This document shows positions 848-7,384 of a DNA stretch of 64,000 nucleotides, one piece after another. The translations under genes and the position numbers were made by a program. Origin of the DNA: Hippea sp. KM1. Its GTDB lineage: Bacteria; Campylobacterota_A; Desulfurellia; Desulfurellales; Hippeaceae. How positions within the stretch are numbered: the first letter of the stretch is position 1; each line of letters begins with the position of its first letter. The notes under the pieces were generated by a model, which saw nothing but the letters and a program-made list of their open reading frames with translations, did no database searches and was not told the origin of the DNA. The DNA is taken from the NCBI RefSeq assembly GCF_000526195.1, contig NZ_JAFP01000001.1, positions 780,001-844,000 on the forward strand, written 5' to 3'.

Positions 848-924
848 GCCCCGATAGCTCAGTAGGATAGAGCACAGGATTCCTAATCCTGGTGCCGCAG
901 GTTCGAATCCTGCTCGGGGCACCA
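848..924 (+). tRNA. tRNA-Arg (anticodon CCT)
   Basis: The full cloverleaf can be folded by eye: acceptor GCCCCGA pairs with TCGGGGC, the anticodon stem CAGGA/TCCTG encloses loop TTCCTAA (anticodon CCT), and the T-arm carries GGTTCGAATCC. The 3' CCA is encoded at 922-924. It reads AGG, a very common arginine codon in this window. The accessory island at 1.1-7.4 kb begins just downstream, which is a common arrangement, but no integrase gene and no repeated copy of the tRNA 3' end was found. Confidence 0.97.
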
Positions 925-1112: not shown

Positions 1113-1161
1113 TATTTGACAAACCTATCTTTTGGTATTACCCTTAAGTTGGAGGTGTGCA

Positions 1162-1410
1162 ATGCCTGTTGTTAAAAAAACCGTGTCCATACCAGAGGAT
1201 TTATACAAAGAGAGCAAAGAATTCTCCAACAACTTCAGCAAAATTATAAGCGAGGCTTTGGATGAATACATAAAGAGGAGAAAGAAAGAGAGGCTCTTAA
1301 GTCTCGCTGGAGTTTTGAATAATGGAGAAGATGGTAAAGAATTTGTCGATAAAATAAGAAACGAAGACTTGAAACTTGAGAAAGAAAAGGAAGCAAATTG
1401 GGATACATAA
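1162..1410 (+). CDS. VapB-like antitoxin of a type II toxin-antitoxin pair
   Basis: An 82-residue basic protein. The N-terminus (KKTVSIPEDLYKES, then an FSKIISEALDEYIKRR helix) resembles a ribbon-helix-helix DNA-binding domain, and the acidic/charged tail probably wraps the toxin. The start is set by GGAGGT at 1151-1156 before ATG 1162; an upstream in-frame start at 1132 has no ribosome-binding site. The stop codon overlaps the toxin start by 13 nt, typical of coupled TA genes. Family role: neutralises the PIN toxin and represses the operon. The identity rests mainly on the partner and the RHH-like N-terminus. Confidence 0.75.
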   Translation: MPVVKKTVSIPEDLYKESKEFSNNFSKIISEALDEYIKRRKKERLLSLAGVLNNGEDGKEFVDKIRNEDLKLEKEKEANWDT

Positions 1411-1790
1411 TAGACACCGATGTCTGTATTGATTTTCTAAATGGCAGAGATTTTGCTGTAAGGCTTTTTGAAGATATACTCAAAAGCGACAAGTGCTATA
1501 TTAGTATCCTAACCCACTTTGAACTACTCAAAGGAGCCCAGAATAGAAAGCAGGAAGAGATAATTCAAGAGTTTGTAAGTCTGATAGATGTAATAAACCT
1601 TGATGAACTCATAATAAAAACCGGTGCTAAGTTTTATAGAAACTACAGAAAGAAGGGTATAACGCTATCGACTGTTGACTGCCTCATAATGGCCACGGCA
1701 AAGGAAAAGAATCTAAAAATCATAACTCGAAATGTAAGGCACTATCCAGAAAAAGAGCTTTTGTCTGAGTTTTCTTTGGGGTTGGTTTAA
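1398..1790 (+). CDS. VapC-type PIN-domain toxin ribonuclease
   Basis: A 130-residue single PIN domain. Acidic catalytic positions are visible: D6/D8 in the IIDTDVCID strand, E42 in THFELLKG and D94 in STVDCLIMATA. The fourth position is N112 (TRNVRHY), where many VapCs carry Asp. These residues coordinate Mg2+/Mn2+ for RNA cleavage, classically of tRNA or rRNA. Initiation is at TTG 1398, inside the antitoxin gene; no ATG exists near the required N-terminus, and the peptide begins directly with the first beta-strand. The pair sits at the left edge of the accessory island. Confidence 0.85.
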   Translation: MGYIIDTDVCIDFLNGRDFAVRLFEDILKSDKCYISILTHFELLKGAQNRKQEEIIQEFVSLIDVINLDELIIKTGAKFYRNYRKKGITLSTVDCLIMATAKEKNLKIITRNVRHYPEKELLSEFSLGLV

Positions 1791-2000: not shown

Positions 2001-4325
2001 ATGTCTTTCGTTCATCTAAATGTATGCTCTGAATACAGTTTCTTTGAGAACACGATAAGGATACCAGATCTTATAAATAAAGCCAAATCTCTGTCAATGC
2101 CCTCCCTTGCCCTCACAGACCACGGCAACATGTTCGGGGCATTGGAGTTTTACAAAACGGCAAAATCAAATGGCATTAAACCCATCCTTGGCTTTGAGGG
2201 CTACATATCACCCACAACTTTGGATGATAGAGATGTAAAAGGCAACTATCACATAACACTCCTTGCCAAGAACAAGAAGGGCTATGAAAACCTCATGTAT
2301 CTTTGCAGCATGGGTTTCTTAAAAGGCTTCTATTACAAGCCAAGAATAGACAAAAACCTACTGAGGGAGCACTCAGAGGGCATTATAGCTGGCAGTGCCT
2401 GCCTGCATGGAGAGGTGCAGCTTAGGCTATTGGATAACGACTTTGAAGGTGCAAAAAAGGTTGTTCAGGAATACAAGGAGATATTCGGCAAAGACAACTT
2501 CTTCCTTGAAATCATGAGACACGGCCTTGAAGACCAAGAAAGGATAGACAAAGACATAATAAGGCTGGGTTTGGAAACAGACACACCCATTGTTGCAACA
2601 AACGACTGCCACTATCTAAACAAGGAAGACGCTATAGCACAGGATGCGCTCCTGTGTGTTCAGACAAACAAGCACTTAGACGATGAAGACAGGATGAGAA
2701 TGGGCTCAAATGAGTTCTACTTCAAAACCGAAGAGGAGATGCTTGAGCTTTTCAAAGACAACCCCGAGTTTGTCTATAACTCCAAGACAATAGCTGACAT
2801 TTGCAATGTTGAATTAGAGCTTGGCAAGCTTGCTCCGCCCCACTATCAGACACCAGACGGCTCAGATGAAAAGGAATTCTTAAGAAGACTTGCCTATGAG
2901 GGATTGGAGAAAAGAACACAAGGCTTTGATAAAGACAAAAAAGAGCTTTACAAGAAGAGACTTGAGCATGAGCTTGCCATAATAGAGCAGATGGGCTTCT
3001 CAGGCTATTTCCTCATCGTTTGGGACTTTGTCAACTATGCAAAAAGAAACGGAATACCCGTTGGTCCTGGCAGGGGCTCTGCAGCAGGCAGCCTTGTCTC
3101 ATACTCCATTGGCATAACAGACATAGACCCCATAAAATACAACCTGCTCTTTGAGCGCTTCCTGAACCCAGAAAGGGTAACAATGCCTGATATAGATGTG
3201 GACTTTTGTGCAGAAAGGCGTGATGAGGTCATACACTATGTGAGGGAAAAGTATGGGGAGTATAATGTGGCTTGGTTGACATCATTTTATAGTATGTATC
3301 CGAAACATGTTGTAAGCAGCGCATCTAAAGTTCTGAACTTTTCTGAAAAAGAAAGAGAAGAAATACTTCAAATGGTACCAATGGAGTACAGCTTAAGTGA
3401 AGCAATAGAAAAAAATCCCACTCTAAAGGAAAAAATAGAAAAAAACAGTAAAGTGAAGATGCTTTTTGATATATCAAAAAAATTGGAAAAAATAAAATTT
3501 AGCCCTGCAATACACTCTGCTGGTTTGATTGTTTCAACGACGGATCCTCTGTATAAAAAATGCCCATTGTATAAAGTACCCGACAGAGAAGTAGTGGCTA
3601 TCCAGTACGACAAAAAATTTATCGAGGATTTAGGTTTGCCAAAATTTTATTTTTTATCCTTAAAAATATTGACCATCATCGACACAACTGTCAAACTCAT
3701 AGGCAACGGCTTTGATATATCCAAAATCCCCCTTGATGATGAAAAGACCTATAAACTTCTGCAAAGGGGCGATACATTGGGCGTGTTTCAGCTTGAGTCA
3801 TCCGGTATGCAGAGGCTTATAATGGATTTAAAGCCCACAGTATTTGAAGACCTAATAGCCCTTGTTGCACTTTATAGACCTGGTCCCTTGGGCAGTGGCA
3901 TGGTTCAGGACTTCATAGACAGAAAGCACGGCAAAAAGCCCATTGAATACCCGCTGCCAGAGCTTGAGGATATACTCAAAGACACATACGGCATAATCCT
4001 ATACCAAGAGCAGGTCATGCAGATAGCAAGTAAACTTGCAGGATATTCACTTGGTGAAGCAGACATATTGCGAAGGGCAATGGGTAAAAAGAAGAAAGAG
4101 GTCATGGACGAGCAACGGGTTATATTTGTTGAAAGGGCAGTAGAAAGAGGCATACCAAAGGATAAAGCAGAATACATCTTTGACCTTATGGCCAAGTTTG
4201 CAGAATATGGCTTCAACAAATCCCACTCTGCTGCCTATGCCTATATTGCCTATCAGACGGCGTATTTAAAGGCGCATTATCGTGAGCAGTTTGAAAGAGC
4301 CATAAAGGTTGTTGATTCTATGTAA
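2001..4325 (+). CDS. Truncated, catalytically degenerate DnaE-like DNA polymerase III alpha subunit
   Basis: 774 residues against about 1,150 for a normal DnaE. The order is PHP (about 1-270), palm/thumb/fingers (about 275-770); the protein stops after the AYLKAHY fingers motif, so the tandem HhH, beta-clamp-binding, OB-fold and tau-binding regions are absent. The palm motif PDIDVDF (D397/D399) is kept, but the third catalytic Asp (KFDFLGL, D555 in E. coli) is Y550 in KFYFLSL. The usual PHP metal motif HLHxH is HLNVC. Residues about 415-555 are highly diverged and AT-rich, while both flanks are conventional. The start is fixed by GGAGGT at 1991-1996. A full-length dnaE is presumably elsewhere. 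It is probably unable to polymerise: either a decaying duplicate or an accessory protein with a new role. Confidence 0.8.
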   Translation: MSFVHLNVCSEYSFFENTIRIPDLINKAKSLSMPSLALTDHGNMFGALEFYKTAKSNGIKPILGFEGYISPTTLDDRDVKGNYHITLLAKNKKGYENLMYLCSMGFLKGFYYKPRIDKNLLREHSEGIIAGSACLHGEVQLRLLDNDFEGAKKVVQEYKEIFGKDNFFLEIMRHGLEDQERIDKDIIRLGLETDTPIVATNDCHYLNKEDAIAQDALLCVQTNKHLDDEDRMRMGSNEFYFKTEEEMLELFKDNPEFVYNSKTIADICNVELELGKLAPPHYQTPDGSDEKEFLRRLAYEGLEKRTQGFDKDKKELYKKRLEHELAIIEQMGFSGYFLIVWDFVNYAKRNGIPVGPGRGSAAGSLVSYSIGITDIDPIKYNLLFERFLNPERVTMPDIDVDFCAERRDEVIHYVREKYGEYNVAWLTSFYSMYPKHVVSSASKVLNFSEKEREEILQMVPMEYSLSEAIEKNPTLKEKIEKNSKVKMLFDISKKLEKIKFSPAIHSAGLIVSTTDPLYKKCPLYKVPDREVVAIQYDKKFIEDLGLPKFYFLSLKILTIIDTTVKLIGNGFDISKIPLDDEKTYKLLQRGDTLGVFQLESSGMQRLIMDLKPTVFEDLIALVALYRPGPLGSGMVQDFIDRKHGKKPIEYPLPELEDILKDTYGIILYQEQVMQIASKLAGYSLGEADILRRAMGKKKKEVMDEQRVIFVERAVERGIPKDKAEYIFDLMAKFAEYGFNKSHSAAYAYIAYQTAYLKAHYREQFERAIKVVDSM

Positions 4326-4388: not shown

Positions 4389-4862
4389 ATGATAAAAATC
4401 AGTAAAGGGTTTGAAATAATTAAAAATCTTAGCGAAATCTTGCAAAGCAATGTCCCAGATATGAGTTTTAATTTTAATATAGTCAAAAAAAGAAATGCCC
4501 CGTTTAAAGATTGGTATAAGATGGAAGTTCCGGGAGAGACAGCATCAAAACGAAGTGGAGTATATTTCATAGCGGACTTAGAAGAAAATACTTTGTATAT
4601 TGGCAAAGCTGGAGCTGATAATCTTGGGGCAGAGATATGGAGTAAATTTCGTGCACCGAATAAGGAAGGTAAATTTGTAAATAGTCCTCTTGCTAAATGG
4701 TCACCAGACGATGCTTATCGTAAACAAATTGTGGATGGCCAAGTTTTAATTGCAGCTGTTGTTATTTGGCCAAAGGAATTCGTATCTCTAGTGGAGGTAT
4801 ATCTTCATATTTGGTGCTCGATGCACGGTGGATTGCCGCCGTTAAATAAGAGAATAGGGTAG
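4389..4862 (+). CDS. GIY-YIG nuclease-like protein
   Basis: A 157-residue single-domain protein. All the signature positions of the GIY-YIG fold can be read: GVY (57-59), YIG (70-72), R88 in KFRAP, E136 in LVEVYLH and N153 in PLNKR. These correspond to the catalytic Tyr pair, Arg, metal-binding Glu and structural Asn of this endonuclease family. No DNA-binding module is attached, so the target is unknown. ATG 4389 follows GGAGG at 4376-4380; a start 15 nt upstream would overlap that site. It lies 63 nt after the DnaE-like gene in the same direction, so co-transcription is possible. Nuclease activity is inferred from residues only. Confidence 0.75.
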   Translation: MIKISKGFEIIKNLSEILQSNVPDMSFNFNIVKKRNAPFKDWYKMEVPGETASKRSGVYFIADLEENTLYIGKAGADNLGAEIWSKFRAPNKEGKFVNSPLAKWSPDDAYRKQIVDGQVLIAAVVIWPKEFVSLVEVYLHIWCSMHGGLPPLNKRIG

Positions 4863-4902
4863 TAGTAAAAGCTACTTTAACCGCTATTTACTTAGGGTTG
4901 TT

Positions 4903-5472
4903 TCAATACATGTCATCTTTAATATATCTGAGGTAATTTATGTGCTGCTTAATCGAGGTCTCGTTAGATATTTTATCATCAGTTAAAAAGAAATCATTGA
5001 AAGGATTATAGGTTCTACTGTAAAATGTAGTGCACACTTCGAACTCTAAATCTTTATATTTCTCAAGTATCCCTACGCCTTTGATAGATGACTCGTCAAA
5101 AATGGAGATTGAAAGTTTAATATGATTAAAAGAAATATCTTTAAGGATCCCGTATAGATCATCTAATATTTTAGGATGAATAACCCTGTAAAGCTCTAAA
5201 TAATTACTTTTTAGCGTTTTTTTAATTGTATCTGGTAATCGCTCAAGGAGTTTTTCGCTTTTTAAAATGAAAATAGCTGTAATAAGAACAGCATCTTTTA
5301 TTAATGTATTAGGATCACACACAAAAACCTTTTGAAAATCTGGTCTTGAGAGGGAACGTAAAATCCATGCTGATCTACTATTTTCAGAAAGAAACAATAC
5401 ATGATTTGGAGTTATCCCGCCCTGGTAAATATGTGACCTACCTATAAGTATTTGGGCTGTGTAAGTAGCCAT
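4903..5472 (-). CDS. Protein of unknown function paired with a PD-(D/E)XK gene
   Basis: A 189-residue protein that I do not recognise. It has no signal peptide or membrane segment; the middle is rich in Lys/Leu/Ile helices and the last third has aromatic-rich strands (FEVCTTFYSRTYNPFNDFFL). It lies 37 nt downstream of the PD-(D/E)XK gene on the same strand, with no terminator seen between them, so the two probably form an operon. No Shine-Dalgarno sequence is visible before the ATG, which suggests coupled or weak translation. AT-rich codon use resembles the upstream gene and differs from the housekeeping genes to the right. It could be a partner subunit or immunity-like protein, which is speculative. 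Confidence 0.6.
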   Translation of the reverse strand: MATYTAQILIGRSHIYQGGITPNHVLFLSENSRSAWILRSLSRPDFQKVFVCDPNTLIKDAVLITAIFILKSEKLLERLPDTIKKTLKSNYLELYRVIHPKILDDLYGILKDISFNHIKLSISIFDESSIKGVGILEKYKDLEFEVCTTFYSRTYNPFNDFFLTDDKISNETSIKQHINYLRYIKDDMY

Positions 5473-5509
5473 ACTGCCATTGCGTAAAATTAACTTAAAA
5501 TAGCTTTGT

Positions 5510-6508
5510 TCAAATGCTTATTTGCCTTTCAAACCATTTACAACATTTTTGGTTTATATCCTTTATCTCTTCCCATGAAACCCATCCCATTCTACTTGAT
5601 AGACTTGTAAAATCATAGTTTCTGTAGGGTAAATCCCTACTTATTGACTTAGGGTTGTTCTTATACTCAAGGAATTTATATCCATAAAATCTGTAATGAG
5701 GATTATCTTTAAAAATCTTTGGGGTTACAAGCAAAAACAAGGTTTTTTCTGGATCCCGTTTACTCAAGGGATAACATAAGGAATCATTTCTTTCCAACAT
5801 TACATCAAGCAATCTTGCGATTTGGTTGCGACTTATATCGTAAGTTATATCACAAGAAATGTCAGATAAAACTTTAGCCTCAATTAAAACAGAGAAACCG
5901 TTAGAAGGGTTTACAATTAAAGCGTCTATCACCGAGGCTCCCTCTAATGTGTTCTTTATGACAAACCCATCTTTTTTATGTAGCTTACCCGAGCTGTTTA
6001 TAACGTACGGAATTAAGTGTACAGGGCAATCTGCGTACCTACGAGATATATTATAGCAATATGAATATTGTTCCTGTAGCCATTTTTTGTAACTCTGAGA
6101 CGATGGTAAATTCGCTTCAAAATAAAGGTGTAGTTCTCCTTCTAAACATTCTTCCCAAGATTGTACTGTATCGATTGGTGGAACTTTTCCATAAGCCTTT
6201 GTCAGAATTTTGGACAGTTCATCTATGGTATTTGTATAAGGACTATGAAAAATTGTCATAAAGGTCGCCGCCGTCCAAAATCTTTCGTCTTTTTCGATTT
6301 GACAAGGATATCTTACTTTACTTATTGGGAGTCCAATATGTTGTAAATTCCTCTGTTTAAACTCCTTGTATCTTTTTAAACTTTTTCTGTAGTAATCCAG
6401 AAATTTTTTGTTTTTCTCGCATTTTCCCTTATTGTTTTTTACCTTTGCACAATGCTCCAAAAGATCACTTTCAGTAAAGGGTAAATAAGTTTCTTCTAAA
6501 ATCTCCAT
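5510..6508 (-). CDS. PD-(D/E)XK nuclease-like protein
   Basis: 332 residues. The C-terminal half carries the restriction-endonuclease-type core: D195 (VIDALIV), E210-x-K212 (VLIEAKV) separated by a short hairpin, then Q229 in RNQIARLLD, the usual order D-(D/E)xK-Q of this superfamily. The N-terminal 150 residues are helical, basic and unrecognised. ATG 6508 follows AAGGTGGT; the longer form from 6547 lacks a site. It is followed by an unknown gene in the same direction. No methyltransferase is nearby, so a classic restriction-modification pair is unlikely; a stand-alone defence or mobile-element nuclease fits better. AT-rich, with codon use unlike its housekeeping neighbours. Confidence 0.6.
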   Translation of the reverse strand: MEILEETYLPFTESDLLEHCAKVKNNKGKCEKNKKFLDYYRKSLKRYKEFKQRNLQHIGLPISKVRYPCQIEKDERFWTAATFMTIFHSPYTNTIDELSKILTKAYGKVPPIDTVQSWEECLEGELHLYFEANLPSSQSYKKWLQEQYSYCYNISRRYADCPVHLIPYVINSSGKLHKKDGFVIKNTLEGASVIDALIVNPSNGFSVLIEAKVLSDISCDITYDISRNQIARLLDVMLERNDSLCYPLSKRDPEKTLFLLVTPKIFKDNPHYRFYGYKFLEYKNNPKSISRDLPYRNYDFTSLSSRMGWVSWEEIKDINQKCCKWFERQISI

Positions 6509-6813: not shown

Positions 6814-7170
6814 TCATTCTAAATCTAAATGAATTTTAATGGCTGTGTCTAACTTTTTCATTAAATCTTTTGGCAATTCTCCAAGCTCTGAAACTATGCG
6901 TTTTTTATCGATTGTCCTTATTTGATTTGCTTTGGCTTTTGAGTCCTTATCTAAATTTGCTGTGCCTTTCGGTATAAAAATCTCAAAGGGATAAACTTTA
7001 TCTATCTTTGACGATGTTATTGGAACCACAGTTATAGTTTCTGCATATTGGTTGTTTATGTCATTTGACACAACAACAGCAGGACGCACCTTATTGATTT
7101 CAGCGCCTATTGTAGGATTCAAGTTTACAAGATAGACAAAACCTCTTTTAATCTTATTAGATTCCGTCAT
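6814..7170 (-). CDS. mazF: MazF/PemK-family endoribonuclease toxin
   Basis: 118 residues. The RGFVYLVNLNPTIGAEINKVRPAVVVSND start is the hallmark MazF/PemK core (G-E-I-x-K-x-RP-xVVVS), followed by the PITSS strand and a C-terminal KANQIRTIDKKRI segment that holds the conserved Thr/Ser-type active-site region. MazF enzymes cleave single-stranded mRNA at short motifs. The gene overlaps its antitoxin by 14 nt, so translation is coupled. An IS3 relic lies just beyond its stop codon. Confidence 0.88.
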   Translation of the reverse strand: MTESNKIKRGFVYLVNLNPTIGAEINKVRPAVVVSNDINNQYAETITVVPITSSKIDKVYPFEIFIPKGTANLDKDSKAKANQIRTIDKKRIVSELGELPKDLMKKLDTAIKIHLDLE

Positions 7171-7384
7171 TTATGGCTACTTCCCACTCTTCTGAGAGTT
7201 CCAAATCCTCTTTTGTTGTTGACATATATCCTTCTTTGAGTTCAGCAATAAGTTTTTCTTTATCTTTTTGTCTTTTATATTCCCTTACAGCTTCAGCGAT
7301 AAAAGCAGATTTGTTTTTCACGCCTTTTAGTATGTCCGCTACATCTTCAGGGACAGTTATATTAAGTCTCTTTGCTGTATTCAT
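7157..7384 (-). CDS. MazE-like ribbon-helix-helix antitoxin
   Basis: 75 residues. TAKRLNITVPEDVADILKGV followed by KSAFIAEAVREYKRQK is a standard ribbon-helix-helix DNA-binding module; the acidic tail (KEDLELSEEWEVAIND) would occupy the toxin. The start ATG 7384 is chosen because AGGAGGT lies directly upstream; the longer form from 7438 runs through the promoter. Its family role is neutralising MazF and repressing the operon. The RHH type is common for PemK/MazF partners outside the classical AbrB-like MazE. Confidence 0.82.
   Translation of the reverse strand: MNTAKRLNITVPEDVADILKGVKNKSAFIAEAVREYKRQKDKEKLIAELKEGYMSTTKEDLELSEEWEVAINDGI

Follow-up and report, generated by a model that had tools for sequence, protein, structure and literature searches.

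Organization of the locus

We analyzed a stretch of DNA of 64,000 nucleotides from Hippea sp. KM1 (positions 780,001 to 844,000 of contig NZ_JAFP01000001.1; hereafter the window), focusing on three adjacent genes at positions 4389-6508 that encode a GIY-YIG-type protein of 157 amino acids (aa), a 189-aa protein (U189) and a 332-aa PD-(D/E)XK protein (PD332). An earlier note, made from the sequence alone, had proposed that U189 and PD332 may be an undescribed two-gene nuclease system. The explanation that we favour, with moderate confidence, is a mobile defence island of low guanine-plus-cytosine (GC) content made up of independent modules, in which PD332 would be a stand-alone restriction-type endonuclease. 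The source genome (G000) is a single contig of 1.74 Mb, and the genes of the sister genome (G005) lie on a 4,229-bp contig labelled as a Desulfurellaceae metagenome-assembled genome (WFYS01000023.1). The features of the locus are as follows.

848..924, + strand: tRNA-Arg (CCT), left border of the low-GC island
1132..1790, + strand: VapBC-like toxin-antitoxin pair (Pfam PIN 3.6e-16; CcdA 2.4e-6 / VAPB_antitox 4.9e-4)
2001..4325, + strand: dnaE-tr, a truncated mosaic DnaE copy that looks catalytically dead (774 aa from the ATG at 2001)
4389..4862, + strand: GIY-YIG-type protein, 157 aa (ATG at 4389; same strand as dnaE-tr)
4903..5472, − strand: U189, 189 aa, a rare family seen in defence operons
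5510..6508, − strand: PD332, 332 aa, an apparently stand-alone, unnamed PD-(D/E)XK family (ATG at 6508)
6814..7384, − strand: MazEF-type toxin-antitoxin pair (toxin 6814-7170, antitoxin-like frame 7157-7384)

Gene coordinates and lengths agreed with those described previously, as did the convergence of the GIY-YIG and U189 genes, which are 40 bp apart. PD332 and U189 lie on the same strand in that order, separated by 37 bp; an alternative GTG start upstream would extend PD332 to 345 aa. The 2.1-kb stretch holding the three genes has a GC content of 33.9%, as compared to 42.3% for the window, and ranked third lowest among 310 sliding windows. Toxin-antitoxin pairs bracket the island genes, VapBC (1132-1790) on one side and MazEF (6814-7384) on the other; the MazEF toxin matched Pfam PemK_toxin (1.4e-32), and its antitoxin was assigned by position and by weak ribbon-helix-helix matches. 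Promoter and terminator scans returned sites no more numerous than in shuffled sequences, and the tRNA was the sole match of an Rfam search.

PD332 belongs to a conserved family of predicted nucleases

A scan of genome contigs recovered 20 loci of the PD332 family from both bacteria and archaea, with identities of 40-91%, the records including Archaeoglobus, Thorarchaeota, Thermodesulfatator, Chloroflexi, Armatimonadetes and Brocadia, among others. The residues that the earlier note had singled out as a PD-(D/E)XK-like pattern, D195, E210, K212 and Q229, are present in PD332 and were invariant in all 20 aligned members. The alignment contains 42 invariant columns, among them QIEKDERFW in the N-terminal part (70-78) and R227-N228-Q229. 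The AlphaFold model of PD332 was confident (predicted local distance difference test score, pLDDT, 86.7; predicted template modelling score, pTM, 0.87), and the chains nearest to it were mostly PD-(D/E)XK nucleases, namely EndoMS, Can2, LmuA and R.BspD6I, at Z scores of 5-6.3, which are below the tool's trust level of 8. Because the fold scores are low and the catalytic residues are invariant, the PD-(D/E)XK assignment is carried by the catalytic pattern, with which the fold agrees.

PD332 matched no NCBIfam, PADLOC or PHROG model and no PDB sequence, its one Pfam match was below threshold (PF22222, expectation value (E) 0.2), and no Pfam domain for modified-base recognition was found in it above the cut-off. 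Fold comparison suggests that PD332 may have the general nuclease core of EndoMS/NucS, Can2/Cdn1, LmuA, R.BspD6I and other PD-(D/E)XK nucleases, but there was no significant sequence or Foldseek match to these enzymes, and PD332 has no recognised CARF, coiled-coil or helicase part. A Pfam scan of the eight proteins of the stretch found no methyltransferase, in agreement with the earlier reading of these nuclease-type genes as lying outside ordinary restriction-modification; PD332 differs from type II restriction-modification enzymes in having no adjacent cognate methyltransferase. The sequences support the view that PD332 behaves as a PD-(D/E)XK enzyme family outside ordinary restriction-modification, with a predicted nuclease activity, and it is best seen as a new, unnamed and probably stand-alone restriction-type nuclease of this superfamily.

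The two top fold rows for PD332 were EndoMS chains (5gke and 2vld; Z 6.3 and 6.1), and the conservation of the family is high by the standards of restriction-type enzymes, both of which would fit a DNA-repair enzyme that acts on host DNA in the manner of EndoMS/NucS. However, these Z values are within the range that the tool calls common, and the distribution of PD332 is patchy: it was found in 4 of 386 genomes (G000, G005, G363 and, as a distant member, G159) and in one of the eight other genus members searched. Such a scattered occurrence across bacteria and archaea, with neighbours that vary, is unlike that of a housekeeping repair gene, and we consider a repair function improbable.

The genes around PD332 change from locus to locus. 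When neighbouring frames were clustered, no family was common to independent PD loci, and the shared families came from the sister pair, from near-identical loci or from single extra loci. Ten neighbours, picked as defence-like or close and drawn from 34 sequences and others, were scanned. Defence-type matches were obtained for RE_MjaI (L006), HNH_2 (L011), DUF4268 (L018), RloB together with AAA_21 (L020) and FRG (L021); an RMMBL metallo-hydrolase and an ADP-ribosylglycohydrolase were also matched, and two of the ten neighbours matched nothing. In Thermodesulfatator autotrophicus (L007, 5887-9403), the PD gene lies directly before an 800-aa gene that by eye resembles pheT.

The distant relative in G159 is 27% identical to PD332 over 153 aa and retains the EAKxLSDI and RNQxAR motifs. 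On one side of its gene lies a DUF1156 methyltransferase gene (415 bits to the HmaB model) and on the other a DUF499 ATPase gene (397 bits to the HmaC model), an arrangement that recalls the BR/Hma (DUF499-DUF1156) systems; PMC12839542 describes PD-(D/E)XK enzymes as auxiliary or backup nucleases of DUF499-centred systems. No other observation speaks more strongly for the PD332 core having a role in restriction. By contrast, no DUF499 or DUF1156 gene lies beside PD332 in the window, and the main PD332 family is found as a stand-alone gene. A 198-aa gene also lies between the methyltransferase and ATPase genes of G159 (L172, 884-9858, − strand), and an AAA_15 ATPase gene is found on the far side of the methyltransferase gene.

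U189 relatives occur in different operons

Credible members of the U189 family were found in four genomes of one bacterial family: G000, G005, and G010 and G013, which belong to another genus of that family and whose U189 relatives are 37% identical. A PD332 match was absent from both G010 and G013. In G010 (L118), an operon begins with the U189 relative, whose gene shares 4 bp with a CARF-RelE gene (357 bits in PADLOC, 109 bits to Cas_APE2256); a CARF-adenosine deaminase gene (714 bits) comes next. Whereas the relative thus heads an operon with both CARF-RelE and a Cad1-type CARF-adenosine deaminase, the U189 gene of the window has no adjoining CARF gene; U189 itself matched no CARF model. 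The G010 operon spans 4599-8360 of contig C78 on the − strand, and a strong Cas10 was not seen in G010. In G013 (L119), the U189 relative is preceded by a 248-aa gene and overlaps a gene for a helicase that matched PbeA/ResIII; the neighbourhoods of the 248-aa gene on two plasmids contained no U189 gene. Considering that U189 is found in differing operons, and in G010 and G013 without PD332, it seems to associate with varied defence effectors.

The AlphaFold model of U189 was poor (pLDDT 42.7), so that its function could not be read from the model, and a profile search of the PDB with U189 returned chance-level rows only.

Several other U189 candidates were rejected. A match in G275, obtained in the profile search of the 386 genomes (E 7e-6), was judged spurious: it covered only model residues 50-138, and its frame, which starts with GTG, overlaps other frames and is without the conserved N-terminus. 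A match in phage BEK1-1 was dropped because an annotated exonuclease gene occupies the other strand at that place, and a match in G003 (L121; E 3.9e-4, 31% identity, one internal stop) was not counted. Weak matches with E of 0.01-0.09 were left out of the counts. A Cas10-palm search returned mostly diguanylate-cyclase-like frames. A link to type III clustered regularly interspaced short palindromic repeat (CRISPR) systems is not claimed, because the strong matches, in G000, G005, G003 and G275, are distant from the locus.

The proposal of a two-gene system was not supported by genomic co-occurrence, the test set by the earlier note, which was not conserved: U189 and the GIY-YIG gene were found near 1 of the 20 PD loci, namely that of the sister genome (L004). 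A six-frame search of the 20 loci located U189 (with its two relatives), the GIY-YIG gene, MazEF and dnaE-tr in L004 only, some of the contigs being short. A dedicated system, with U189 as the sensor of infection or as a restraint on the nuclease, would accord with the 37-bp spacing and order of the two genes, with the retention of both in G005, and with the tight packing of U189 relatives against effectors, as in the 4-bp overlap with CARF-RelE and the overlap with the helicase gene. However, U189 is missing from the other 19 PD loci (several on short contigs), the PD gene is missing from two of the four genomes that have U189, and the poor U189 model discloses no function; we regard such a system as unlikely. 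The best reading of these distributions is that U189 would be a rare accessory gene and not an obligate partner of PD332.

The GIY-YIG gene follows a truncated copy of dnaE

The earlier note had stated that the GIY-YIG protein keeps all five signature positions within 157 residues. This is true of the copy in the window (G57-V-Y59, Y70-I-G72, R88, E136 and N153), but the signature is not conserved, as R88 is replaced by His in the sister orthologue and by Gly in a third, N-terminally truncated copy (G003). No Pfam family matched the protein at E≤1; weak matches were obtained to UvrC (E=0.012) and PADLOC UzuA (E=0.0017) at residues 56-94 of a 162-aa frame, and a loose version of the spacing pattern appeared in 5 of 200,000 shuffles of the protein. 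Since Pfam does not recognise it, the GIY-YIG assignment rests on the motif order, the weak UvrC and UzuA matches and the shuffle count. The protein resembles GIY-YIG endonucleases (UvrC N-domain, UzuA) in keeping G-V-Y, Y-I-G, E and N in order, and differs from them in the absence of a Pfam match and in an Arg position that is R, H or G in the three homologues. Its gene starts 63 bp after the dnaE-tr stop codon on the same strand, an arrangement kept in G005, and is intact in only G000 and G005 among the 386 genomes. On the best reading of the sequences, it would encode another small nuclease, one associated with the upstream dnaE-tr.

dnaE-tr is the most unusual element of the locus. It is an extra copy of dnaE, the full-length host gene being 329 kb away, and is 87% identical to it overall. 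Between the two, there were no base mismatches over residues 41-423 and about 560-729, whereas residues 1-40, 424-560 and the end are strongly diverged, with saturated synonymous change. The identity over long tracts is attributable to recent gene conversion from the host gene. Although copied in this way from host DnaE1, the C-family DNA polymerase alpha subunit, dnaE-tr differs from it at catalytic sites and in length. In the PHP domain, HLHNH has become HLNVC, with loss of metal ligands. The first two catalytic Asp residues are kept (PDIDVDF), but the third, which we take to be the equivalent of Escherichia coli D555, has become Tyr (KFDFLGL to KFYFLSL). The protein ends after AYLKAHY, following the fingers, and has no HhH, OB or C-terminal parts. 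PMC3919608 gives D401, D403 and D555 as absolutely conserved in C-family polymerases, in a survey from which fragments without an intact active site were excluded. In the small part of the literature that was searched, no defence island with a dead copy of DnaE was found to be described.

The variant block of dnaE-tr is common to two copies in G005 (85% identity), with a ratio of nonsynonymous to synonymous substitution (dN/dS) of about 0.18 between species, and in a tree of the block the three copies formed one supported group on a long branch. Selection on this block suggests that it encodes a functional product. The variant N-terminus of dnaE-tr is common to G002, and the copy on contig C5 of G005 is an uninterrupted 773-aa frame; the G005 and G002 copies are instead preceded by a VapC remnant and an ABC-transporter locus. 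In the C5 locus (L036, 7167-14746), the intact copy is followed by a paralogue of DnaB that consists of the C-domain only (53% to the DnaBs of the genus) and by two GmrSD_N genes. A dead-looking DnaE paralogue that has lost both PDIDVDF and KFDFLGL was also seen in G013 (L097; contig C21, 3-1763, − strand), on a contig that ends near the dnaE-tr truncation point; common descent with dnaE-tr is not claimed, as this copy sits on a very long branch and its placement is unsure.

These features could be accounted for by a replisome decoy, in which the dead DnaE would act as a stand-in for the host polymerase towards phage proteins that seize or block DnaE, and binding would release the GIY-YIG protein as the effector. 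The copy is identical to host dnaE over long tracts and yet contains a constrained variant block (424-560), its variants strike the PHP motif and the third catalytic Asp, and G005 has a second intact copy that is followed by the DnaB paralogue and the GmrSD_N genes. However, gene conversion accounts more simply for the identity to the host gene, the C5 copy has a normal PHP N-terminus, and the GIY-YIG gene, found intact in two genomes, is not behind every dnaE-tr copy; we give this decoy little credence. In a wider form, dead replisome copies (truncated DnaE and, in G005, also the DnaB C-domain paralogue) would be baits or sensors and exchangeable downstream nucleases (GIY-YIG; GmrSD-type in G005) the effectors of a guard/decoy system directed at phages that target or take over DNA polymerase III, a proposal that we likewise consider improbable. 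One might speculate that gene conversion would then keep the copy identical to DnaE except at the disabled catalytic sites.

Selective constraint and probable exchange between species

Between G000 and G005, dN/dS was 0.12 for the GIY-YIG gene, 0.19 for U189 and 0.11 for PD332, indicating purifying selection on all three genes, and PD332 and U189 have counterparts in G005 that are 91% and 87% identical, respectively. The truncation of the upstream dnaE copy and of the N-terminus of the G003 GIY-YIG copy would be expected if the island were in decay and its genes no longer had a function; however, all three frames are uninterrupted in two species and under this constraint, and the PD catalytic residues are invariant, which makes decay very unlikely.

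Synonymous divergence between the two genomes was 0.32-0.38 for the three genes, as compared to 0.51 (residues 41-423) and 1.03 (residues 566-763) for the main dnaE gene. The lower divergence of the three genes suggests that the GIY-YIG-U189-PD332 block was exchanged horizontally between the species after their split. In G005, tRNA-Arg (CCT) is preceded by a GntR gene, as in the window, and is followed by other tRNA genes, the island being absent there; a tyrosine recombinase gene lies at the end of the sister contig that carries the GIY-YIG, U189 and PD genes.

Several observations weigh against a mobile defence island with PD332 as a restriction-type endonuclease. At most PD loci, no gene of a recognised defence type adjoins the PD gene, and several neighbours look, by eye, like housekeeping genes. 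A Foldseek search with the PD332 model returned nothing at E≤0.001. The sole integrase seen is that of the sister locus. The 3′ end of the tRNA has no second copy in the window (up to 3 mismatches) and no repeat of the attachment (att) type was found, so that integration as a classical att-bounded element at tRNA-Arg is unsupported. Finally, PD332 relatives were absent from the viral contigs and plasmids searched, and such vehicles are unsupported as well. No credible U189 relatives were found in the viral contigs or plasmids searched, and no GIY-YIG relatives in the plasmids or phages searched.

Discussion

Given that U189 and the GIY-YIG gene are near 1 of the 20 PD loci, and that the same-strand neighbour of the GIY-YIG gene is dnaE-tr, the PD gene looks self-sufficient and the trio looks like modular cargo. 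The modules would have been acquired separately and be carried beside tRNA-Arg in a defence island whose mobility we infer. PD332 would most likely restrict invading DNA, such as that of phages, through metal-dependent cleavage at D195, E210 and K212, with Q229 alongside. Because no methyltransferase is linked to it, PD332 must be kept off host DNA in some other way, possible safeguards being a target that is rare or modified, or an enzyme that is switched on upon infection. U189 would act as an accessory that travels with different defence effectors, and the GIY-YIG nuclease would be paired with the upstream dnaE-tr.

With members in both bacteria and archaea and a distant relative within a DUF499/DUF1156 system, the sharply conserved and unnamed PD332 family is a candidate one-gene restriction factor in thermophiles. 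U189 points to an uncharacterised accessory that shifts between restriction loci and operons with cyclic-oligoadenylate effectors. Should the dead DnaE copy prove to be expressed, it would represent an uncommon instance in which a defence island has recruited the gene of a replicative polymerase.

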